Origin: Apostichopus japonicus
Taxonomy: Eukaryota; Echinodermata; Holothuroidea; Aspidochirotida; Stichopodidae
NCBI RefSeq assembly: GCF_037975245.1
Contig: NC_092568.1
Location: 42,087,631-42,151,630, forward strand
Direction of reading: 5' to 3'
DNA length: 64,000 bases
Shown: in pieces, positions 13,156 through 64,000 of the stretch
How the letters are laid out: each line of letters starts with the position of its first letter
How positions within the stretch are numbered: position 1 is the first letter of the stretch
Notes under the pieces: model-generated
The model's input: the letters and a program-made list of their open reading frames with translations, nothing else
Database searches by the model: none
Told to the model about the DNA's origin: nothing
Position numbers and translations under genes: made by a program

Positions 13156-16100
13156 CAGTATGTGGCATGCACATACCAAATATGACCAGCATGTGGCATG
13201 CACATACCAAATATGACCAGCATGTGGCATGCACATGCCAAATATGACCAGCATGTGGCATGCACATGCCAAATATGACCAGCATGTGGCATGCACAAAC
13301 CAAATATGACCAGCATGTGGCATGCACATACCAAATATGACCAGCATGTGGCATGCACATACCAAAATGACCAGCATGTGGCATGCACATACCAAATATG
13401 ACCAGCATGTGGCATGCACAAACCAAATATGACCAGCATGTGGCATGCACATACCAAATATGACCAGCATGTGGCATGCACATACCAAATATGACCAGCA
13501 TGTGGCATGCACATACCAAATATGACCAGCATGTGGCATGCACATACCAAATATGACCAGTATCTGGCATGCACATACCAAATATGACCAGCATGTGGCA
13601 TGCACATACCAAATATGACCAGCATGTGGCATGCACATACCAAAATGACCAGCATGTGGCATGCACATACCAAATATGACCAGCATGTGGCATGCACATG
13701 CCAAATATGACCAGCATGTGGCATGCACATACCAAATATGACCAGCATGTGGCATGCACATGCCAAATATGACCAGCATGTGGCATGCACATGCCAAATA
13801 TGACCAGCATGTGGCATGCACATACCAAATATGACCAGCATGTGGCATGCACATGCCAAATATGACCAGCATGTGGCATGCACATACCAAATATGACCAG
13901 CATGTGGCATGCACATGCCAAATATGACCAGCATGTGGCATGCACAAACCAAATATGACCAGCATGTGGCATGCACATACCAAATATGACCAGCATGTGG
14001 CATGCACATGCCAAATATGACGAGCATGTGGCATGCACATACCAAATATGACCAGCATGTGGCATGCACATACCAAATATGACCAGTATCTGGCATGCAC
14101 ATACCAAATATGACCAGCATGTGGCATGCACATACCAAATATGACCAGCATGTGGCATGCACATACCAATATGACCAGCATGTGGCATGCACATGCCAAA
14201 TATGACCAGCATGTGGCATGCACATGCCAAATATGACCAGCATGTGGCATGCACATACCAAATATGACCAGTATGTGGCATGCACATACCAAATATGACC
14301 AGCATGTGGCATGCACATACCAAATATGACCAGCATGTGGCATGCACATGCCAAATATGACCAGCATGTGGCATGCACATGCCAAATATGACCAGTATGT
14401 GGCATGCACATACCAAATATGACCAGTATATGGCATGCACATACCAAATATGACCAGTATGTGGCATGCACATACCAAATATGACCAGCATGTGGCATGC
14501 ACATACCAAAATGACCAGCATGTGGCATGCACATACCAAATATGACCAGCATGTGGCATGCACATGCCAAATATGACCAGCATGTGGCATGCACATACCA
14601 AATATGACCAGCATGTGGCATGCACATGCCAAATATGACCAGCATGTGGCATGCACATGCCAAATATGACCAGCATGTGGCATGCACATGCCAAATATGA
14701 CCAGCATGTGGCATGCACATGCCAAATATGACCAGCATGTGGCATGCACATACCAAATATGACCAGCATGTGGCATGCACATGCCAAATATGACCAGCAT
14801 GTGGCATGCACAAACCAAATATGACCAGCATGTGGCATGCACATACCAAATATGACCAGCATGTGGCATGCACATGCCAAATATGACGAGCATGTGGCAT
14901 GCACATACCAAATATGACCAGCATGTGGCATGCACATACCAAATATGACCAGTATCTGGCATGCACATACCAAATATGACCAGCATGTGGCATGCACATA
15001 CCAAATATGACCAGCATGTGGCATGCACATACCAATATGACCAGCATGTGGCATGCACATGCCAAATATGACCAGCATGTGGCATGCACATGCCAAATAT
15101 GACCAGCATGTGGCATGCACATACCAAATATGACCAGTATGTGGCATGCACATACCAAATATGACCAGCATGTGGCATGCACATACCAAATATGACCAGC
15201 ATGTGGCATGCACATGCCAAATATGACCAGCATGTGGCATGCACATACCAAATATGACCAGTATATGGCATGCACATACCAAATATGACCAGTATGTGGC
15301 ATGCACATACCAAATATGACCATAAAGTGTTATGCACATACCAAATATAACCAGTATATGGCATGCACATACCAAATATGACCAGCATATGGCATGCACA
15401 TACCAAATATGACCAGCATGTGGCATGCACATACCAAAATGACCAGCATGTGGCATGCACATACCAAATAACGTGGCATGCACATGCCAAATATGACCAG
15501 CATGTGGCATGCACATGCCAAATATGACCAGCATGTGGCATGCACATACCAAATATGACCAGCATGTGGCATGCACATACCAAATATGACCAGCATGTGG
15601 CATGCACATACCAAATATGACCAGCATGTGGCATGCACATACCAAATATGACCAGCATGTGGCATGCACATACCAAATATGACCAGTATATGGCATGCAC
15701 ATACCAAATATGACCATAAAGTGTCATGCACATACCAAATATAACCAGTGTGTGGCATGTACATACCACACATGACCAGTGTGTGGCATGCACATAACAA
15801 ATATGACCAGTGTGTGGCATGCACATACCAAATATGAACACTATGTGGCATGCAAATACCAAATATGACCAGCATGTGGCATGCACATACCAAATATGAC
15901 CAGCATGTGGCATGCACATACCAAATATGACCAGTATATGGCATGCACATACCAAATATGACCAGTATGTGGCATGCACATACCAAATATGACCATAAAA
16001 AGTCATGCACATACCAAATATAACCAGTGTGTGGCATGTACATACCACACATGACCAGTGTGTGGCATGCACATAACAAATATGACCAGTGTGTGGCATG

Positions 16101-16490
16101 CGCATACCAAATATGACCACTATGTGGCATGCACATACCAAATATAACCAGTGTGTGGCATGCACATACCACACATGACCAGTGTATGGCATGCACATAC
16201 CAAATATGACCAGTGTGTGGCATGCACATACCAAATATGACCAGTATGTGGCATGCACATACCAAATATGACCAGTGTGTGGCATGCACATACCAAATAT
16301 GACCAGTGTATGGCATGCACATACCAAATATGACCAGTGTGTGGCATGCACATACCAGATATGACCAGTGTGGCATGCACATACCAAATATGATCAGTTT
16401 GTGGCATGCACATACCAGATATGACCAATGTGTGGCATGCACATACCAAATATGACCAGTGTGTGGCATGCACATACCAAATATGACCAC
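13156..16490. repeat. 31-bp minisatellite, about 108 units
   Basis: The unit contains CAGCATGTGGCATGCACATA then CCAAATATGAC (31 bp). Units vary mainly at CATACC/CATGCC/AAACC, CAGCATG/CAGTATG/CAGTGTG, and by 1-2 bp deletions (for example ACCAAAATGACC). Older, more diverged units lie at the right end (15700-16490). The core of the array is homogenised, with higher-order duplications: GACGAGC at 14018 and 14886, CAGTATCTGG at 14083 and 14951, and ACCAATATG at 14164 and 15032 are all 868 bp (28 units) apart. Because 31 is not a multiple of three and the minus strand of the unit lacks stops in every frame, all three minus frames stay open for 700-1100 codons. This is not evidence of a protein. Confidence 0.95.
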
Positions 16491-22336: not shown

Positions 22337-25300
22337 CTGAGTAAAAAAATCAAAGCACAAACTCATGAAAAGAGGTATGCTCTCAGTCATGCCTCATAAA
22401 AAAGGAATGGTTTCATTCGTGGTAAATTAAAAGAGGTATGATAACAGTATCCTCATAACCAGAGGCAACTACTGTTATGACTCATGAAAAGAGGTATGCT
22501 CAGTCATGCCTCATTAAAAGAGGAATGGTTTCATCCGTGGTTTATTAAAAGAGGTACGATAACAGTATCCTCATGACTAGAGGTAGCTACTGTTATGACT
22601 CATGAAAAGAGGTATGCTCACAGTCATGCCTCATAAAAAGATTAATGGTACCGTCCATGGTTTATTAGAAGAGGTATGATTACAGTATCCTCATAACTAG
22701 AGGTAGCTACTGTTATGACTCATGAAAAGAGGTATGCTCACAGTCATGCCTCATAAAAAGATTAATGGTACCGTCCATGGTTTATTAGAAGAGGTATGAT
22801 AACACTATCCTCATAACTAGAAGTAGCTACTGTTATGACTCATGAAAAGAGGTATGCCCTCAGTCATGCCTCATTAAAAGAGGAATGATTTCATCTGTGG
22901 TTTATTAGAAGAGGTACGATAACAGTATCCTCATAACTAGAGGTAGCTACTGTTATGACTCATGAAAAGAGGTATGCTCACAGTCATGCCTCATAGAAAG
23001 ATTAATGGTACCGTCCATGGTTTGTTAGAAGAGGTATGATAACACTATCCTCATAACTAGAGGTAGCTACTGTTATGACTCATGAAAAGAGGTATGCCCT
23101 CAGTCATGCCTCATAAAAAGAGGAATGGTTTTATCCGTGGTTTATTAGAAGAGGTATGATAACAGTATCCTCATAACTAGAGGTAGCTACTGTTATGACT
23201 CATGAAAAGAGGTATGCCCTCAGTCATGCCTCATAAAAAGAGGAATGGTTTTATCCGTGGTTTATTAGAAGAGGTATGATAACACTATCCTCATAACTAG
23301 AGGTAGCTACTGTTATGACTCATGAAAAGAGGTATGCTCAGTCATGCCTCATTAAAAGAGGAATGGTTTCATCCGTGGTTTATTAGAAGAGGTACGATAA
23401 CAGTATCCTCATAACTAGAGGTAGCTACTGTTATGACTCATGAAAAGGGGTATACTCACAGTCATGCCTCATAAAAAGAGGAATGGTTTCATCCATGGTT
23501 AATAAGCAGAGCTATGATAACAGTATCCTCATAACTAGAGGTAGCTACTGTTATGACTCATGAAAAGAGGAATGTACCGTCCATGGTTTATTAGAAGAGG
23601 TATGATAACAATATCCTCATTACTAGCGGTAGGTACAGTTACGACTCATGAAAAGAGGTATGCCATGAGTACTGGATTGTGAATTGTAATTATACACATA
23701 GTCTAATGCTCACAGTATATATGTATCATTCAAATCATGTCTTAGTCTGTGCGAAGGGGGAGGGGGTGAAAGTAGGCTCTACTGAATGCTCATATCAAAT
23801 ATTAAGCCAATTGAAATAATTGTAAATAGATGAATATGACAACAATTTGAATATCAACAATTTAAAAACAAATTGCTAGATCTCTTTATGTCAGAGGTAA
23901 ACTTCCATCAAGTATTCATGACAAATCACTCTGAAGCACTTCAAAAACTTGTGAGATTATGTTTACTTGGACAACTGACAACCTTTACTTATGTACTATA
24001 GTAGCTATGAAGCATTGTCTTACCTCCCATGGAATTGAGTAGGGCCTGTGGAGCACATGTGTCCCACTTCTTACAGCCAGGGCTAGCGAATATGTAGGCA
24101 CTGGCACGACCTTCTAATAAAAGTAAAACCTACAAGGAATAGAAAGATGACAAGCTGTAAAACTAGCTGCTGGACACACAGAGAAGATTTCAATGTCAAA
24201 CAAAGTTTGCTTCCTAAGCTTTTTGTTGTCTTCCTAAGCTGGCATGGAGTACATCATTCGATTCCACTTTGTGTCATGATTCACAGGTTTCTATGTCATA
24301 CATTCTGTGGTAGAGGCAAGGAGGGTGGGGAGGGTGGGGGAAGGTTTGGGGCAGGGGGGGATTATTGATTGAACAAGGCATCTCAGTGTCCTATGCATTG
24401 CCCTGCATTGCCCTATGCATTGTCCTATGCATATCCCTTCTTTGCTGTAATTATAATCTATGTTGATATTACGATTAAGACAGAAGCCACATGCTTAAAA
24501 AAGTAATATATGAAGAATAAGAGGTGTGTGATCAACAATTACATATAATAATAGCACAAAATGATTGATTTAATTAATAATCACATTAATATAGCAGCAG
24601 TGATTAATTTAATTAACAATCAGATGAATCATAGCAAACTGTTTAATTTTTCAATTAGAATAATTTAGAAATCAACAGCACAGTGAATCAAATTAGAGGT
24701 AATCGTATGCAATAAGTGAGACTAATTGAATTATTTGTTTATCACATAGGACTCATTCAATTGTAACTCTTGTAGATATCAACAAAATACCACTGTACTG
24801 GTCAAACTGCAAGAAACTCTTCTTACCATATATGTCCAGCTCTGTCTACTCTTGTATACAAACTAAGGTAAATCTGTAAGGTACCCCTGTTCTTATCTAG
24901 TGTGCAGCCACCCTTACCCTGGTGTCCCTGTTATGTGCTACTGTATTAAGGTTACCCTGCAAGGTACCCCTCTCTTTATCTGGTGTGCAGCCACCCTTAC
25001 CCTGGTATCCCTGTTATGTGCTACTGTATTAAGGTTACCCTACAAGGTACCCCTCTTCTTATCTGGTGTGCAGCCACCCTTATCCTGGTATCCTTTATAT
25101 GTGCTACTGTATTAAAGAAGAACGATAGTGACAGAAAAAAAATCTCTCATTTTCATATATAATGTAGTTTATATGTTACCAAGCAACATATTTTTTTAAT
25201 TTTCCAAATAGCACACCGGAAAGTCATAAAAAAAGGGAATTTAAACATCGTTTTTCGCCTCCGTAATTTAGGAATTTTCAAACACTGCAACGACCTTGAA

Positions 25301-28300
25301 CAGCCCTCAGGTCAGTGAATGACGTCACTGTGATGATCTTTTCTGTGGTGAACTGTTCAGTACGGAGCTGTGCGTGCATTTCGTGTCAGCATAACTGTTA
25401 TTTTCCGGCGTAATGTTCAAGACATAAATAGATAATGAATATCATAGTGTTTCTTGATTTCTTCACCACGTGTTTACAAGTTTTTTTTACGAAATTTGAG
25501 GTGATTTCGCAATGATTTCCCAATATCTGAAGAGGTAACTCGCAAGCTGACCCAAAGTAACGTAGATCTCAAGATCACGTTTTTGGCGGGTTTTATACAG
25601 AGTGATGTATGAATGTGCTCACTTACCAGTCAAACTGGCACAATAACAATAGTGATGATAGTCTCAAACGTAGATTAGTATAACATCCGAAAGAAAATCC
25701 AAAGTTCTAAACAAAGTAGATTCGCTTGTATGCACTGGGCCTACTGTAAAACATAAACGTTCCTTGTTCCGTGCGTCATTAAATCCAACAGAAAGGTTTC
25801 ATTGAGCTTGAAATACAACCGCATTTGAACTCAATCGAGTTGTTAGTCTAGATCGAACAATTTTCTCACTACATGCAATGCCTATTGCGTTTATTCACAT
25901 GCATGCCTCGTGGTTTGGGCTTCAGGAGGAATCGTATTCTAGCCCAACTTCACGTAGGTCCGCAAACGGTACGTTCACACTGTGCAAACATAAGTGACAG
26001 TGTGCGCTACCGTAAGTAATACTTACACGATGTTTTGTTTCGCTCAAGCATACACACATTTCCTATTCGTATTACAGTTAAAGTGGTTTGGAGGGTATGA
26101 ACACATCTCTGCCCCAAAAAACTCTGCCTTAGCGACGTCCATGCCCCAATTGAAATTTGCACGTGGATTCTCTCCTCACATAGTCATTAGGTTGTTCACG
26201 TCTGACATGTCTTCCAGTTCCAACACTTACTGTTGCATTTATCTGGATATATATAAATAATGCGGCATAAAATCATCAATCTTTCAAACTTTTATTACTT
26301 TAGTGACCTTGCCACACGCAAATTTCAATTGGGCCCGAGAATCATCTTCTGTGAAGTGGGCAGAACAAACTTTCACATTCTTGCCATGAGAAACTCCTGG
26401 TGCGATGAAATCTTTCCTGGTTCTCCTCACAAATCGTATCCAGAGTTTCCGATATCTCTCACTACTTTTTCCGCTTGGAAAATTGAAAAAAAAACTTATT
26501 GTAGAGTCCACATTCGTTCTGTTGCATCCCCCTAAAATGCAATTTCTTGGATTTTGCTAGTGGTTTACGTTGTTTGTAGAGTCCAATATAGAGTAGGTTG
26601 CAACTAAACTTACACACTAAGTGCACACTGCTGAAGTACACTCACGTTGTTATCATCATAATGACGTCACATGTCACTGTAGATCACGTGATCATCATAT
26701 CGCTGTTCGCGAAAAGCCCAATTTTTGTTTAAAAAATCAACGAGTTTAGGAATTTTTTTTAAGCCTTTCCCAACATCGGATTGACTTTTTTTTTCACATG
26801 TGTAAAATGGAAACCAACTAGAATACTCTTGAATAAAATCGTATTTTTTCGACAATGGTGAAAAATCACTATCGTTCATCTTTAAGGTTACCCTGCAAGG
26901 TACCCCTGTTCTTATCTGGTGTGCAGCCACCCTTACCCTGATATACCTGGTATGTGCTACTGTCTTAAGGTTACCCTGCAAGGTCCCCCGGTTCTTATCT
27001 GGTGTGCAGCCACCCTTACCCTGGTATCTCTGATATGTGCTACTGTCTTAAGGATACCCTGCAAGGTACCCCTCTCCTGCTCTGGTGTTCAGCCACCCTT
27101 ACCTTGGTATCCCTGTTTTGTGCTACTGTCTTAAGGTTACCCTACAATGTACCCTCTTCGTACCTTATGTCCAGCCCCACCTACTCTGAGCACCTCATCC
27201 GGCTGCATGGCATCTATTGTCTCCTGGACTGCCTCTGTTCCATGAGACCGTGTGGTAGTGATTACTCTCTTGCCACCAAGCGAGTCCTTATTTTCACAGC
27301 CGAAACACCCAACACCGACGATACCCCACATGGTTCTCCCCATTGGTGCCCCAGGACCAGCCTGGTAGTTGTAATATGGTTGGTGTATCACACCACCAAC
27401 TGCTTTACCATTTACAGCTACACCAATTAAAACTGTCACATGATCCAGGAAGCCTGCCACATAAACAAATATGGAGTCACATTGTAATGATCTGTTTCAG
27501 ATTGATTCCACTGAAACAAACTTGAGATTGGAACATGGTCTCCATGACAACATATATGTCCGTCTTGCAAGGACTAAGCAACAAGACTATATGACGTAGA
27601 AGTGACCACAAATCAAAACAAAAACAACAACAACAATCTAAGAAACCTTTACTGAGGCCCATGATACTCATCTTGTCCTCAATTATGTACATTGCAACTG
27701 CTAAGTGTAACTGCATCGGCTATTTTTAGAACAGTTGTATATTTAGCAGAAGTTGACAATAAGAAAACAATCATCGTAAAAAAAAAAAGAGTTTGTGTAA
27801 TGGGCAGTTACTACTACACTGGAAGCATAATAGGGCAGTTACTACACTATTATCATTATTGGGCAGTTACTACACTGTTATCATTATTGGGCAGTTACTA
27901 CACTGGTATTATCATAGCAAGCAAACCGCTACTTGAGGTTGAAACAGCAATGTTTAGCAAGAGGTTGTGTAATGGGCAGTTACTACTACACTGGAATCAT
28001 AATAGGGCATTTACTACACTGGTATTATTATAGCTAATGCAAAAGGCTCCTTGAGGCTGAAACACAGCAATGTTAAAATCATTATAGTAAAAGGTTGTGT
28101 AATGGGCAGTTACTACTACACTGGAATCATAATAGGGCATTTACTACACTGGTATTATTATAGCTAATGCAAAAGGCTCCTCGAGGCTGAAACACAGCAA
28201 TGTTAAAAACATTTTAGCAAGAGGTTGTGTAATGGGCAGTTACTACTACACTGGAATCATAATAGGGCATTTACTACACTGGTATTATTATAGCTAATGC

Positions 28301-31300
28301 AAAAGGCTCCTTGAGGCTGAAACACAGCAATGTTAAAATCATTATAGTAAGAGGTGGTGTATTGGGCAGTTACTACTACACTGGAATCATAATAGGGCAT
28401 TTACTACACTGGTATTATTATAGCTAATGCAAAAGGCTCCTTGAGGCTGAAACACAGCAATGTTAAAATCATTATAGTAAGAGGTTGTGTATTGGGCAGT
28501 TACTACACTGGTATCATTATAGGGCAGTTACTACACTGGTATTATAATATTGCAAAAGGCTCCTTGAGGCTGAAACACAGCAATGTTAAAATCATTATAG
28601 TAAGAGGTTGTGTAATGGGCAGTTACTACTACACTGGAATCATAATAGGGCATTTACTACACTGGTATTATTATAGCTAATGCAAAAGGCTCCTTGAGGC
28701 TGAAACACAGCAATGTTAAAAACATTTTAGCAAGAGGTTGTGTAATGGGCAGTTACTACTACACTGGAATCATAATAGGGCATTTACTACACTGGTATTA
28801 TTATAGCTAATGCAAAAGGCTCCTTGAGGCTGAAACACAGCAATGTTAAAATCATTATAGTAAGAGGTGGTGTATTGGGCAGTTACTACTACACTGGAAT
28901 CATAATAGGGCATTTACTACACTGGTATTATTATAGCTAATGCAAAAGGCTCCTTGAGGCTGAAACACAGCAATGTTAAAATCATTATAGTAAGAGGTTG
29001 TGTATTGGGCAGTTACTACACTGGTATCATTATAGGGCAGTTACTACACTGGTATTATAATATTGCAAAAGGCTCCTTGAGGCTGAAACACAGCAATGTT
29101 AAAATCATTATAGTAAAAGGTGGTGTATTGGGCAGTTACTACACTGGTATTATTATAGGGCAGTTCCTAAAATGGTATTATTATAGCTAATGCAAAAGGC
29201 TCCTTGAGGCTGAAACACAGCAGTGTTAAAATCATTATAGTAAGAGGTTGTGTATTGGGCAGTTACTACACTGGTATTATTATAGGGCAGTTCCTACACT
29301 GGTATTATTATAGCTAATGCAAAAGGCTCCTTGAGGCTGAAACACAGCAGTGTTAAAATCATTATAGTAAGAGGTGGTGTATTGGGCAGTTACTACACTG
29401 GTATTATTATAGGGCAGTTCCTACACTGGTATTATTATAGCTAATGCAAAAGGCTCCTTGAGGCTAAAACACAGCAATGTTAAAATCATTATAGTAAGAG
29501 GCTGTGTATTGGGCAGTTACTACACTGGTATCAATATAGGGCAGTTACTACACTGGTATCATTCTAGCAAGCAAAAGGCTACTTGAGGCTGAAACGCAGC
29601 AATGTTCATATCATTTTAGCAAAGTTTTAACAATCTGAAGCTTACATATAATTATACAGCAAGTAAAAGGAAACGTGTGGGTCCAACTCTAGTATTTACG
29701 GCCTGCTTGTTCTCTTGATGAGGAACATGTTTGATATATCAAATTATTGAGCAATGCACTCACCCCAACAAAATGAATTCATTTGGAAATTTTATACCTA
29801 ACAGAATAAGCTATGAAATTGGTAATTGTACCAATATGCTTTGTTCCACCAGCTCTATATATATATATTTGTTTCAAATCTCAGATTTTGCATATGTCTA
29901 ATCACAAATTCACAAAGTATTAGAAATTTACACTACCTGAGTAACCTGACACAATATTGATCTAAATAAATCACCAACCGAGTATCCCAAACACACATAC
30001 GTTATTGAAAACCATCCATAAAATTGCAAATGCAGCAAAACATCTTTTATATTTGATATTAAAAACGAGATAGAAAAATTATTATTAATCCAGAGAAAGG
30101 GAATTGTAGCCAAAGGATAAACAGGAAACTGAGGAGGCACCTGTAAAGACATTTTCATTTTAGAATGAACTGCTTGAATACAAGTCCTCTGTGGCAGTCA
30201 AAATTGTTAGACATTGCAAACAAACATAATGCAAGGGTTTATTACTGCAAGAAAATCTAATAAAGAATCCACTTCTTGGATTGCTTCATAAGATTGTGCA
30301 TAATTCTAACCAAGGTTGAATATTTGCAGCAATTTGCATGGCATAATTCTGGAAAGTTTTACAGCTCAGAAACAAACGTTTTTTCAACATTTTTTAACAT
30401 AAGGTTACAATTCAGTGGAAATTAATCAAGAAGGTTTTGACAAACATTACAGGAATAATTGGACAAACTTAAAGACTGGTGGACAGCTGTCAGTAAACAC
30501 AACACTGGAACAACCTAATGAGATTACAAGTGATGTAAGTGGAGTGTTGTGAGCCACCCATGCTAGTGGACATTTAAACAGTCTAATTGCTAGATGTATG
30601 TAATTTTAATTTACCTTGAGTGTACTCTGTGGTGCCATCAACAGGGTCCACCCATATACAAACCTGAAAGAAATAAATCAAGAAAATATGATATATTTTA
30701 TAAATATTAGTGTCACTCAACCAAGTTAGTAATCAAACAGCAGCACCAAGGATGCAACATGACTGAGGTCAAAAACAACAACAACAACAGCATACAGTAC
30801 ATCTTCTTCATCTCTAGCCTGGACAAGATAGGCAGTTTAAGGGTTTAACAATGTTCCATTGAATTCTGTTTAGTTTCTTGTGTATCTCTTACTGACATCT
30901 ACCATTCCCTACTGTACCTTCTATTCACCAATCCCTCTGCCTCACCATGTTACTACCACTGTTCCCTTCCCTCTATTGTCACCAAATTCCATTCCATCCC
31001 AGTCCCCTCCCATAACCTCTACCCACCACATGGCAGGTTAATACCATGCCTTCAATAATGCCATGTTAAGCAATCAAACAAAACAATTAACTTTAAACTT
31101 ATGAAACTTAAGGAGTGGAATAAAGAAGGTCTACAGTTTTCCAGAATGTCAGCCATCAATGAGAGTGGCATTTCCTTAGAAAACATCTTGAAGTGAATCT
31201 ATGGATAGACCATTCAATTGATAAATCGATCTAGTGATGGATATTAATTATTCAAATTAGATCTTGAAATCTACATCAATTGTTCTAATCAATGAGTGGT

Positions 31301-34300
31301 GATAGTACTAGCATTTCAGATGTTTATAGGAATCTATCAATAAATCAATATCTGGTTCTGTAAGTTACCTCTCCTGGTTTTACATCCTTGAGGTCATCAG
31401 GGCATTTGACCTTAAGAACCTCCTCTGAATCTTTCATCTCAATCAGACTGTCATCCTGAGACAAATCCTGAGTAAAGAGAGAAAGATATATATGAGTTAT
31501 AAATAGTATACTACAAACGTTATAACTGTACAACACTAATGTAAGCAATATGTACCATAAGAGGTCAGACCTATACAGGAAAATAGACTTTGTAACATGC
31601 GTAATAATGTAACTTTGTACAAATACGTAATTAATGGAAATCAAAATATGAAAACAGCTACAGCATCAGCTGGTAAACTGAACTCTTTTGTGTTAACTTA
31701 ACAGTATATAAATGGGAAAATCCTCCAGTTCTGTGCAATGTCACTTTAATACCTCTTTCATACAGTAGTAGAAGAAGTACTTTATCCAAGTTCCACGGCC
31801 ATCTTCCACTCAAAGACCTACATGGAGATTTATCCAATTGTCTCTTCTTGATATCATTTGTTTAAAAGGAAGACACCACACACACACACACACACATGTA
31901 TGCCATTATCATCTCATACAGTAGGATGATGATTGTCATCAAAACAAGGTAGATTAAGTACTCAATGGCAGTCTAAAAGTAACTTGTCTATGAATGCAGC
32001 TGTGGGTTAAATTTTCAGCTGGTATGTAAAATACAGAATTAACATTAACATCTTGACTGATTTTTTAAAGAAAATTGCTGTTTGTCCCTAGGACAGCATC
32101 AATGATAGCCTCGATTCCCATTCCCCCCCTCCCCCCCCCCCAACAAAGAACAAGTAAAAAGAAAATGTCCTTCTCAGGAAAAAAATCAGTCCTTTTACAG
32201 AGCAACACGTTAATGTTTGACGACGACTTCCTTATCTAAAGGCATGTACTGTACTAAAAGTTAATCTTTCCTTTCCTAACATTGATATGAAAAGCCATTG
32301 TTTTAATTTAGCTTTTGTTATCAGATAGGCTCATCTCATTGACTTTACTGATATATGTTTGTCTAGTGGTTTTCCCTCTGATTATAGTACAACAGCTAAA
32401 CAGCTTATCATTCTGTTTTCATTTCATGTACTTTGGCATAAAATGGATATTCACAGCTAGACTTAACCAAAACAGTTAAAAAGTGTATACAAACTGTATG
32501 AAGGTCAGGATTGCTTTATCTCCAGATTTAAGTACTATCAGGCTACTTGTGTCTACATACCATGAATGACTGACAACCTTTACTGCACAACTTCAAATAC
32601 TTGATCATATCATAGATCTACAGTTTACAACCGAGGTGGGCAACCTTTTTGACTGAATGGGCCAGATATAGTGAAAAATTGACTGGGGCACACCTACTGT
32701 AACCAACGACCTGCTGTTGATTTCAAACCTTTGATTCCGAGGACTTCTAAGCAATAGGTGTGTGTACTTAATCTGTATTCACAAAAATATAATGTCAATA
32801 CAGTACAGTTCATAATTATTGGGGATAATAGGCCTACCTTACAGCATCATTAGTGCAGATAAATTCTAAGCAGCTAGCTCGTTTTTCTTGTGATGATGTA
32901 AATTAGTTTGATTTTCTTTCATTTTCTTAAGAAATCTCACAGGCCGAAAAAAAAATGGCCGCATGTGGCCCGCTGGCCGTAGGTTGCCCACCCCTGGTCT
33001 ACAAGGTGTTGCATGCCACACTACTACTCTACTAACACTGGGCTAACATGGTTTATTCATATTCCTACATTTGTGTTGCTATGGACACCTCCTACAGTAT
33101 CTATTACTAGTCAGTATCAATGTACTGGGCTAACATGATTTATTCATATTCCTACATTTGTGTTGCTATGGACACCTCCTATCTATTACTAGTCAGTATC
33201 AATGTACTGGGCTAACATGTACTCATATTCCTACATTTGTGTTGCTATGGACACCTATCTATTACTAGTCAGTATCAAAGTACTGGGCTAACATGATTTA
33301 TTCATATTCCTACATTTGTGTTGCTATGGACACCTCCAATCTATTACTAGTCAGTATCAATGTACTGGGCTAACATGATTTATTCATATTCCTACATTTG
33401 TGTTGCTATGGACACCTCCATTCTATTACTAGTCAGTATCATGGTACTGGGCTAACATGTATTCATATTCCTACATTTGTGTTGCTATGGACACCTATCT
33501 ATTACTAGTCAGTATCATTGTACTTGGCTTATATGTATTCATATTCCTACATTTGTGTTGCTATGGATACCTATCTATTACTAGCAGTATCAATGTACTG
33601 GGCTAACATGTATTCATATTCCTACATTTGTGTTGCTATGGACACCTACAGTATCTATTACTAGTCAGTATAATTGTACTGGGCTTACATGCATGTATTC
33701 ATATTCCTACATTTGTGTTGCTATGGACACCTTTCTATTACTAGTCAGTATCAATGTACTGCCAGGCTAACATGTACTCATATTCCCACATTTGTGTTGC
33801 TATGGACACCTATCTATTACTAGTCAGTATAAATGTACTGGGCTAACATGTATTCATATTCCTACATTTGTGTTGCTATGGACACCTCCATTCTATTACT
33901 AGTCAGTATCATTGTACTGGGCTTACATGTACAGTATTCATATTCCTACATATGTGTTGCTATGGACACCTCCAATCTATTACTAGTCAGTATCAATGTA
34001 CTGGGCTAACATGTATTCATATTCCTACATTTGTGTTGCTATGGACACCTATCTATTACTAGTCAGTATAAATGTACTGGGCTAACATGTATTCATATTC
34101 CTACATTTGTGTTCTATGGACATTTGTGTCGCTATGGATAACTAGAACTGCACTGCCTGAAAATATGCAGTATTGTAGTGCGCGTTAAGTGCTTGCAGGA
34201 TAAGGAAGAACTTTTCGGTTGTTCATGGTGTTATTTTTTGGGCGGACAACACACCAGGGAGTACTTACAAAGTGAGGGCGCTTGTGAGCTCAGAATAAGT

Positions 34301-61042: not shown

Positions 61043-62078
61043 ATGGGAAGCAGTTCAAGTGTACAGAAAAAGAAATTGAAGGAAGGTGATGAAGGGAGTA
61101 AAGCAGATAAGACCAAGAAAGATAAACAAAAGACACTAGAAGACCATCTGGAGGCTCTGAGAGCAGCGATTGATTACTTGAGTATCTGTTCCAACTTCAA
61201 AACCAAAGATTGCTATTCATACTTTGTTACTATACGTTCAGCTTCAAATCCTCCAGGGATGCCAATTGAGGAAAGGGTCCACATTGCTGACCTTGTCATT
61301 GAGTTAGACTATACATCTCTGTTCCCTTTGATCTGGTCAGATCTACATTCTGTTGATCTATCTCAAGGTCACGGCAAAAATAAACAGCCAGAGGAGTCCG
61401 TGCCGCATCAAGCTATGAGTAACTTGAAGGCTTTTAAAGCAGCTTGGTGGAATTTTACAGATTGGTCTACACCACTGGTGGTAGAATTAGGTACTACCAC
61501 TGCTCTAAGATCACTAGTCAGTGACCTGGAAGACCCAGACTTGGCTGTTGATAAGATGAGCAGCGAGAGCAGGAGATTCTTGATCAAGGGATCGCTAGGG
61601 ACCATACATAACATGGTTAGACGAGATGCAAAACTCAGGATGCATATAAGGAAAATCGAGAACTGTGTTAATCTTTTCACTGCATACTCTCGGAGCACTT
61701 TTCTCATCATTCAGGCCAAGAGCTTCTTGATCTTGTCATATATTCTCTGTGAGAATGAATATGCTGCTATGGAGGCCACTGATAATTCTATTGGTTTCCT
61801 TGTTGGAATGCTGAGGGAATCTTTAAATTATAAAAACCACAAGGCAAAGAAATATGGATTCAGTTCAGCAGAAATCCTGCAAGGTTTAAACCAGATAGCC
61901 CTAAATGATCCCAACAAAGTTAAAGTCATGGATAACGGAGCCGTCCCCCTCATGGTACGAATGCTTGGGGACAACTGTTCCATTGAAGAACAGACATTAG
62001 CATCAGAGGGACTTTGGAAGTTAGCTTTTGCTGAGGATAACAAACAGAGAATGAGGGAAAACACTGCCCTTATGGAAG
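61043..62078 (+). CDS. ARM-TIR gene exon with start codon
   Basis: 345 codons plus one base. Start chosen because MGSSSS is a myristoylation consensus and no in-frame upstream ATG extends it. Donor GTTAGT at 62079; reading through it hits a stop almost at once, supporting the splice. Confidence 0.9.
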
Positions 62079-63728
62079 GTTAGTGTTCAATATTACATAT
62101 CCAGACAATTTGCATGTGGGGTGGAACTATGCACTTGCTTTGTTGCATTGGCATTAATTATCTAAATTATATGCAATGCTTCCTAAAGACAAGTGTTTGT
62201 GGCTGATTGACCAATCTAGCAGACAACCTGTCCTTAGTTTCTCTTGATATGATTCTCACCATATAATGGATTCCATAATTCTCTAAAAGGAAAAAAAGAC
62301 AGATTTGTGATATGAATAACATGCTGACCAACTTTCTTTTTAAGCATATAATATATTTAAAACAAATTTAAAGTTTGAAGCAACTCAATTGTGCGGAATT
62401 TTCATTTCCTTATTTAATTTTTTACTTTCATTATTCTGCACAGGCCTCCTAAAACTTAAGGATTCAGATAACCCTACATTAAAATCACAATGCCATGGGG
62501 CATTATGGGAAATAATGGGAGGGGGTATTAATATTCATATGAAACATATGACAGCTGAGGATCTGAAGAAACCAGGACAGAAACGACATACTAGGGTGCT
62601 CCCAAATAAGAGTCATGTGATGATCAGCTACCAATGGGATGTACAGCAGAGTATGCTCTCTCTTAGGGATGCATTGAAGAATGATGGCTATAATGTGTGG
62701 ATGGACATAGACAAACTGGGTAAGTTGTATACAATGCCCTTTAAATTTCAACAGAACTTGTGTTTGGTTGAAAATTTTCAATGTTATTCAATTGCATCCA
62801 ACTACTGTATCTTACAGCATTGCTTTGACTATTCAAATTTCTTTCTCAGTCAAATTGCTCTACTAAATTGATTGACTAATTTTGTATGTAATAAATGCAA
62901 AATATGCAGCTTACTTTCTTAATGACCAATGTTTTAGAAGTGATGAAGTCATTAGTTTAGTCACTAAATTAGTATTTATTTGGTGAACACATCTTGCAGT
63001 GTGCCTTGGTTTGAACAGACTTTGCATCTTGATTGTGAGCAATTGTTCATCTAGGTTTACTAAAATTAGCATAATTGAATAACCAAAGATAAACAAACAG
63101 CTCCACCGTCTCTTCGCTTTACTCCACGAAACAGGAAAGTATTAGAGTCGGTTCTGCATTTGGTCTTTTACCAAACCTACAGAGGAGTACTCATAATAGA
63201 AATGCACTTGATCAAGCTATATTAAGATGACATTTTTAGATTTCTTTTTCACCAAATGAAGTTTAATCAGCAAGGAATTAATAGATCTATACATTTCATT
63301 GCCAAGATACTTTTCGAATCAGCATTTATCACTTTTAAAAATCAACCTGAAAATGACCAAACTTTTCTTACTTTCACTTCAAAGATTTAAAATAAAACTT
63401 GACAAGTCAAGCTAATGTCCTTCTTTGCCATCAAAATCAATTCTACAAATCTGCTTTAAGTGGACAACTTTAAAATGAAGAATACTTGATCAAGTCTAAA
63501 CATGACACATGCCACTTGAAAATCAGTTCTCAATGTTTTACTTTTAATAGTTTAATTTGCTTTAATAGAGGTGGGCTTTGCAAACATATGAGTATGCTTT
63601 GTGTAACATAATACATCTTCCCACAGATGGTGACATCTTAGGTGGAATGGCAGATGCTGTTGAACAGGCTGCTGTTGTGCTAGTTTGCTTCTCACAGAGG
63701 TACAAAGATAGCCAGAGTTGTAGAACAG
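61043..63728 (+). CDS. N-myristoylated ARM-repeat/TIR-domain protein, 5' part (gene continues past the window)
   Basis: Exons 61043-62078, 62444-62719 and 63627-63728 join in phase to give 471 residues so far. The N-terminus, MGSSSSVQKKK, is a strong N-myristoylation signal (Gly2, Ser6) followed by lysines, predicting membrane anchoring. Residues ~35-375 are helical, ARM-like repeats; the clearest are around NGAVPLMVRMLG and ASEGLWKLAFAE, and in exon 2 KSQCHGALWEIM. A TIR domain starts at residue 403: HVMISYQWD, then GYNVWMDIDKLDG, VEQAAVVLVCFSQRYKDS and CRT at the cut. This is the TIR_2-like family, whose members resemble the SARM1 TIR NADase. Only ~30 residues separate ARM and TIR, so there is no SAM domain, unlike SARM1. 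NAD hydrolysis or immune signalling is inference. An in-frame acceptor just upstream (TTTTTCAG, ending 60990) suggests 5' untranslated exons. Confidence 0.88.
62444..62719 (+). CDS. ARM-TIR gene, second coding exon
   Basis: Two bases, 91 codons, one base. Last ARM-like helix pair, a basic linker (KKPGQKRHTR) and the first half of the TIR domain. Acceptor TATTCTGCACAG, donor GTAAGT. Confidence 0.92.
63627..63728 (+). CDS. ARM-TIR gene, third coding exon
   Basis: Two bases, 33 codons, one base (G). Second part of the TIR domain, ending in CRT. The dangling G is the first base of the codon where TIR NADase relatives carry the catalytic glutamate (CRTE pattern). Acceptor CTTCCCACAG, donor GTAACC. 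Confidence 0.88.
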
Positions 63729-64000
63729 GTAACCAATCATTCATTTTGTGTTGTGCCTTTGTATTGAAGAGGAAGTATAATCATCTCACTAACATGATGC
63801 GGTATGAACCTCTACACAATTAAATATTGTAGTTATGATTTCTAAAATTGATCAAGTTTCAACTATGTTAATTACTATTTATGAATTACATAATTATGAT
63901 ACTAGCAGGCAGCTGATTAAATTACTGAATGCTTGCACTAAAATATCAACCATGAATATGTTTAACCCTTAATATTGTTTTATGATTGCTTCACTGTTGA
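63729..64000 (+). other. Intron of the ARM-TIR gene, cut by the window edge
   Basis: AT-rich, begins with the GTAACC donor. The remaining TIR exon(s) must lie beyond the window. Confidence 0.6.

Follow-up and report, generated by a model that had tools for sequence, protein, structure and literature searches.

Gene structure

The window, by which the whole analysed stretch of 64,000 bp of Apostichopus japonicus DNA is meant (GC 0.373, CpG observed/expected 0.354), contains at its 3' end the 5' part of a gene encoding an immune-type ARM-TIR protein that may be tethered to a membrane. The coding span, 61043-63728 on the plus strand, consists of three exons that join into one continuous frame of 1414 bases, or 471 whole codons, with the following features:

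61043..62078, plus strand: exon 1, from the start codon to residue 345 and the first base of codon 346
61043..61129, plus strand: N-terminal 29 residues, Gly2/Ser6 myristoylation pattern and then a basic cluster (prediction only)
61130..61870, plus strand: residues 30-276, predicted helical; no ARM match for residues 30-248
61871..62078, plus strand: ARM repeats (phmmer), residues 277-345, extending into exon 2 to about residue 370
62079..62443, plus strand: intron 1, GT..AG, with the junctions AAG/GTTAGT and TTCTGCACAG/GCC
62444..62719, plus strand: exon 2, remainder of the ARM part, a short linker (residues 372-403, about 30) and start of the TIR domain from residue 404
62720..63626, plus strand: intron 2, GT..AG, with the junctions TGG/GTAAGT and TCTTCCCACAG/ATG
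63627..63728, plus strand: exon 3, TIR domain from the BB-loop region to SQRYKDSQSCRT and the first base, G, of codon 472
63729..64000, plus strand: start of intron 3, donor CAG/GTAACC; the window stops 272 bases into this intron

Exon 1 has an open frame of 345 codons up to the donor of intron 1 and encodes the myristoylation-type N-terminus, a Lys-rich tail, a helical region and ARM repeats. An in-frame stop codon (TAA) ends 9 bases 5' of the ATG, and the start context is AACATGG. A further coding exon 5' of the ATG seems unlikely, since no strong acceptor was seen by eye directly before it. A chance reading frame was ruled out by the probability of a 345-codon open run, which is about 5e-10 at the stop frequency of the window (0.060 per codon). 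Prokaryotic contamination as the source of the gene was ruled out by the introns and by the absence of relatives in the collections described below. All eight AG sites within 63729-64000 were read in the needed phase and inspected by eye; none was TIR-like or offered a convincing continuation exon, and after two of them (63833 and 63857) the frame runs for 46 and 38 residues to its first stop.

The rest of the window contains many long tandem arrays and split genes. A 31-bp satellite occupies 13156-16489 (108 copies, 94% matches); on the minus strand the repeat mechanically produces open frames as long as 1108 aa, which were not taken as a gene. Other long arrays lie at 27955-29619, 22361-23574 and 33037-34122; their units measure about 130, 120 and 79/240 bp, respectively. 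The Pfam scan of the window covered 10 of the 100 listed open stretches of at least 75 aa. It revealed, on the minus strand, a THAP-domain coding stretch (26287-26556, PF05485, 4.9e-10), possibly transposon-derived, and an exon of the inositol-monophosphatase family (27140-27496, PF00459, 4.3e-9), which we take to be BPNT1-like. The open stretch 31348-31665, also on the minus strand and with no Pfam match, may be another exon of the latter gene.

N-terminus and ARM repeats

The N-terminus of the protein, MGSSSSVQKKKLKEGDEGSKADKTKKDKQK, is Lys-rich and matches the myristoylation pattern at Gly2/Ser6. The protein starts with MGSSSSVQKKK, the MGSSSSV pattern at Gly2 being followed by QKKKLK, and there are 10 Lys and 0 Cys among the first 35 residues. 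The pattern used, PROSITE PS00008, would be matched at Gly2 by chance in about 1.1% of Met-initiated proteins of the same composition, and the myristoylation signal named in the sequence-only reading is upheld as a prediction from this pattern. The predicted lipid-anchor signal is an unusual feature of this ARM-TIR protein.

ARM-like repeats had been proposed for the N-terminal part, and this proposal was confirmed for a portion of it. A phmmer search of PDB sequences with residues 249-372 gave Vac8 as the best match (9.2e-11), followed by ARMC4/ODAD2 (2.9e-8 to 6.6e-7), an engineered protein (6.2e-6) and Rap1 GDS1 (7.3e-5). Nine of the 29 rows had E values of at most 0.001, their matched stretches lying at about residues 277-370, while the reversed query gave five rows, the best at 0.49 and none an ARM protein. 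Residues 30-248, however, returned only three rows from PDB sequences, with a best E of 0.75 and none of them ARM. Five guessed repeats were also compared with one another: for two of the ten pairs, fewer than 10% of the shuffles scored as high (35 and 25 of 500, uncorrected for ten tests), and the other eight were no better than shuffles. Altogether, the presence of about two ARM repeats, best placed at residues 277-370, is well supported by sequence comparison, and a longer ARM solenoid over the N-terminal part is plausible.

In the Pfam profile search suggested in the same reading, TIR_2 scored over its cutoff, and the ARM families remained below theirs (Arm 0.24, ARM_PUB 0.048). For the structure prediction, AlphaFold models were built from the single sequence for stretches of 345 and 196 aa. 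Their best mean pLDDT values were 47.0 and 60.8, the remaining four models per stretch reaching 30.1-36.2 and 35.4-42.3, respectively. The models consist of helices with no strands; pLDDT was below 50 for residues 1-218, and block means did not exceed 70 before about residue 240. Foldseek searches with both models gave no match at E of at most 0.001 among 737 and 647 rows (E up to 10). The word armadillo occurred in 25 titles of the best 50 of 737 and in 33 of the best 50 of 647, but these matches have low TM-scores and lend weak support to an ARM fold.

Linker and TIR domain

Pfam assigned residues 404-470 to TIR_2 (PF13676) with an E value of 4.1e-12 and a score of 47.1 against a cutoff of 28 bits. 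The match covers profile positions 1-69 of 122, so the presence of a TIR domain in the same protein, claimed earlier, holds for the first half of the domain, which is what was read. When used alone, this TIR half (69 aa) matched TIR_2 at 1.5e-13, whereas PF01582 TIR (0.11) and SEFIR (0.12) were both below the cutoff. Against PDB sequences it gave three rows, of which two were chains of plant RPS4 (0.28 and 0.29) and the third belonged to a thermosome (1.3).

SAM domains are about 65 residues in size, and the approximately 30 residues (372-403) between the ARM part and the TIR domain are therefore too few to accommodate one. Pfam gave no SAM row at E up to 10, in a search whose filters drop most matches above 0.1, and no SAM domain was found up to residue 471, the readable part of the protein. 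The earlier statement that the linker is too short for SAM is thus correct, and within the window the architecture of a predicted lipid-anchor signal, ARM, a short linker and TIR is upheld.

According to a TIR survey, positions Ser/Thr63 and Tyr/Phe66 are conserved and Glu75, which is E642 in SARM1, is critical for NADase activity (PMC7075850). In the protein studied here Ser460-Gln-Arg-Tyr463 fits positions 63-66, and position 75 therefore corresponds to residue 472. This residue lies directly after the part that was read, and only the first base of its codon, G at 63728, is seen, so residue 472 is Glu, Asp, Gly, Ala or Val. Glu is likely, because Glu75 is present in more than 70% of TIRs overall (PMC7075850). 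Intron 3 cuts the codon of this catalytic position after its first base (63728-63729), and its placement may be a useful marker for comparing relatives.

Box 1 (SHVMISY) and the BB loop (DKLDGD, residues 435-440) are partly, not exactly, like the motifs of the SARM1 TIR group, PDVFISY and E(R/K)LEAG (PMC7075850). The first, second and sixth positions of the latter are important for SARM1 catalysis (PMC7075850); in an ungapped comparison they are D, K and D here, with one of the three kept; if a gap of one residue is allowed, the glycine is conserved.

Searches for relatives outside animals

Relatives were sought in prokaryotic, viral, plasmid and phage collections, which contain no animals and of which the contig scans reach close relatives only. 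Neither the TIR half (592 and 44 pattern stretches in genome and viral contigs) nor residues 150-345 (17 and 1 stretches) had a confirmed relative there, and the phage collection gave no match. Four plasmid records with E values of 7-9, under a helicase gene, were taken as chance. PHROGs gave two rows only (0.051 and 0.21) and NCBIfam none. Three rows were obtained with PADLOC: bSEFIR (4.6e-5), a SAVED-TIR model (0.015) and PDC-S66 (0.025). They were read as general TIR/SEFIR likeness and not as a sign that the protein belongs to these systems.

Possible function

The best explanation as a whole, which we put forward tentatively and at somewhat less than an even chance, is a membrane-held ARM-TIR protein whose TIR domains, crowded by a partner, signal and perhaps consume NAD. 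The N-terminal myristate and the Lys-rich tail would hold the protein on the inner face of the membrane, and the ARM solenoid would bind a protein partner, as in Vac8, rather than NMN/NAD. Binding of the partner would crowd the TIR domains, in place of a SAM ring, and the crowded TIR domains might then signal. When dimerisation of the SARM1 TIR is forced, NAD+ is hydrolysed (PMC7688312), and a different way of crowding could therefore suffice too. Signalling that includes an NAD-consuming activity is slightly favoured, because all Glu codons start with G and so does codon 472. Evidence against this explanation is that the ungapped BB loop keeps only one of the three positions involved in SARM1 catalysis, that the first 35 residues lack cysteines like those at the N-terminus of Vac8, and that the non-animal collections searched gave no relative. 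Furthermore, the survey of 2020 warns that Glu75 is not necessarily a tracker of activity, and it gives the TIR of SARM1 as the only animal TIR with known NADase activity (PMC7075850).

Another explanation could be that the protein is a membrane-tethered non-enzymatic adaptor, which recruits Toll-like receptors or MyD88 by TIR-TIR contacts while its ARM part serves for docking. This is a serious possibility, only slightly less likely than the first explanation. The ARM-TIR proteins of Aplysia are listed in a table as putative adapters in immune signalling (PMC9334734), and the abstract of the survey describes complex formation as a common role of TIR domains and NAD degradation as a less common one (PMC7075850). 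Glu75, moreover, is present in more than 90% of TLR subgroup 3.2, which is absent from the groups named for NADase activity in the same passage (PMC7075850). The preference of the TIR half for TIR_2 (1.5e-13) over PF01582 (0.11) speaks against an adaptor, although a half-domain query lowers both scores. A non-SARM1 animal TIR NADase, gated by a partner on the membrane, in which the lipid anchor and the ARM partners replace SAM crowding, seems unlikely.

The sequence-only reading had suggested a SARM1-like lock, and a metabolite-gated NADase without SAM, the ARM part of which binds NAD/NMN and locks the TIR domain, can be imagined. The order of ARM and TIR is the same as in SARM1, and the Box 1 and BB-loop motifs are partly similar. 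Having no SAM is not in itself a reason to place a protein outside the SARM1 TIR group, because the proteins of this group carry SAM, Arm repeats or both (PMC7075850). However, single-sequence phmmer searches with the whole protein, the TIR half and two ARM-side pieces found no SARM1 chain at E up to 10 (searches run without a positive control), and SARM1 was not named among the Foldseek matches listed (best 50 of 737 and best 50 of 647). The residues of the SARM1 ARM pocket, namely W103, R110, L152, R157, H190 and R322 (PMC7688312), were unplaceable, because no alignment was obtained. With no SARM1 match in these searches, the ARM part was not assigned to the SARM1 type, although a distant relation may exist; its closest matches are ARM proteins of the scaffold type. 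The lock over an NADase found no support from homology and is quite improbable. The animal ARM-TIR protein described here is probably not a SARM1 orthologue.

Two further explanations carry little weight. A decayed or truncated gene copy, conceivable for a gene known here from genomic sequence alone and with its 3' rest beyond the window, is very improbable, because the three exons share one frame, contain no stop and have good splice sites. Hardly credible, too, is a SARM-family protein whose SAM domains follow the TIR in the part of the gene beyond the window, since the two SAM domains of SARM1 sit between ARM and TIR, where the linker here has about 30 residues.

As found, the protein is one further ARM-TIR member, incompletely read. 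If it is tethered to the membrane, as in the partner-crowding explanation preferred above, it would allow two questions to be tested cleanly, namely whether animal TIRs other than that of SARM1 are enzymes and whether crowding at the membrane can take the place of a SAM ring.

Comparison with known systems

SARM1 and TIR-1 share with this protein the order of an N-terminal ARM part and a C-terminal TIR domain. SARM1 differs in the tandem SAM domains between these parts, of which none was found here, and the myristoylation-type N-terminus predicted here is a further difference. No paper joining TIR domain, myristoylation, armadillo and SARM1, with all four required, was found among the open-access papers searched.

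The yeast protein Vac8, an N-myristoylated ARM scaffold, is the best sequence match of the ARM part. Vac8 is not known to contain a TIR domain. It has 12 ARM repeats, which form a platform for protein binding, and is anchored by N-terminal myristoylation and palmitoylation (PMC6899017); no cysteine that could correspond to its palmitoylated N-terminal ones is present among the first 35 residues of the protein described here.

Similar proteins probably occur in many marine invertebrates. TIR proteins of bivalves and Metazoa are the subject of a comparative paper by Gerdol (2017; DOI 10.1016/j.dci.2017.01.014). Placozoa are described, after that paper, as having conserved TIR proteins that are apparently absent from vertebrates (PMC6321704), and invertebrate genomes, that of Aplysia for example, contain many TIR proteins whose function is unknown (PMC9334734). 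Group 18 of the TIR survey brings together TIRs of diverse architecture from cnidarians, molluscs, echinoderms, early chordates, fish and protozoa (PMC7075850), and the present protein could be a member of it.

ARM-TIR is a named class in the oyster Crassostrea gigas, according to a figure legend (PMC4346834), and in Aplysia californica 11 ARM-TIR proteins are given in a table and 10 with armadillo folds in the text (PMC9334734). These mollusc proteins, compared here by their descriptions only, are named apart from SARM and combine an armadillo-type fold with a TIR domain, as does the present protein with the first half of its TIR. The descriptions consulted do not mention a lipid anchor, which is predicted here. 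The earlier characterisation of such proteins as poorly characterised is a fair one, although their domain make-up itself was already known from the oyster and Aplysia, and the protein thus adds one member to a known kind whose function is uncharacterised.
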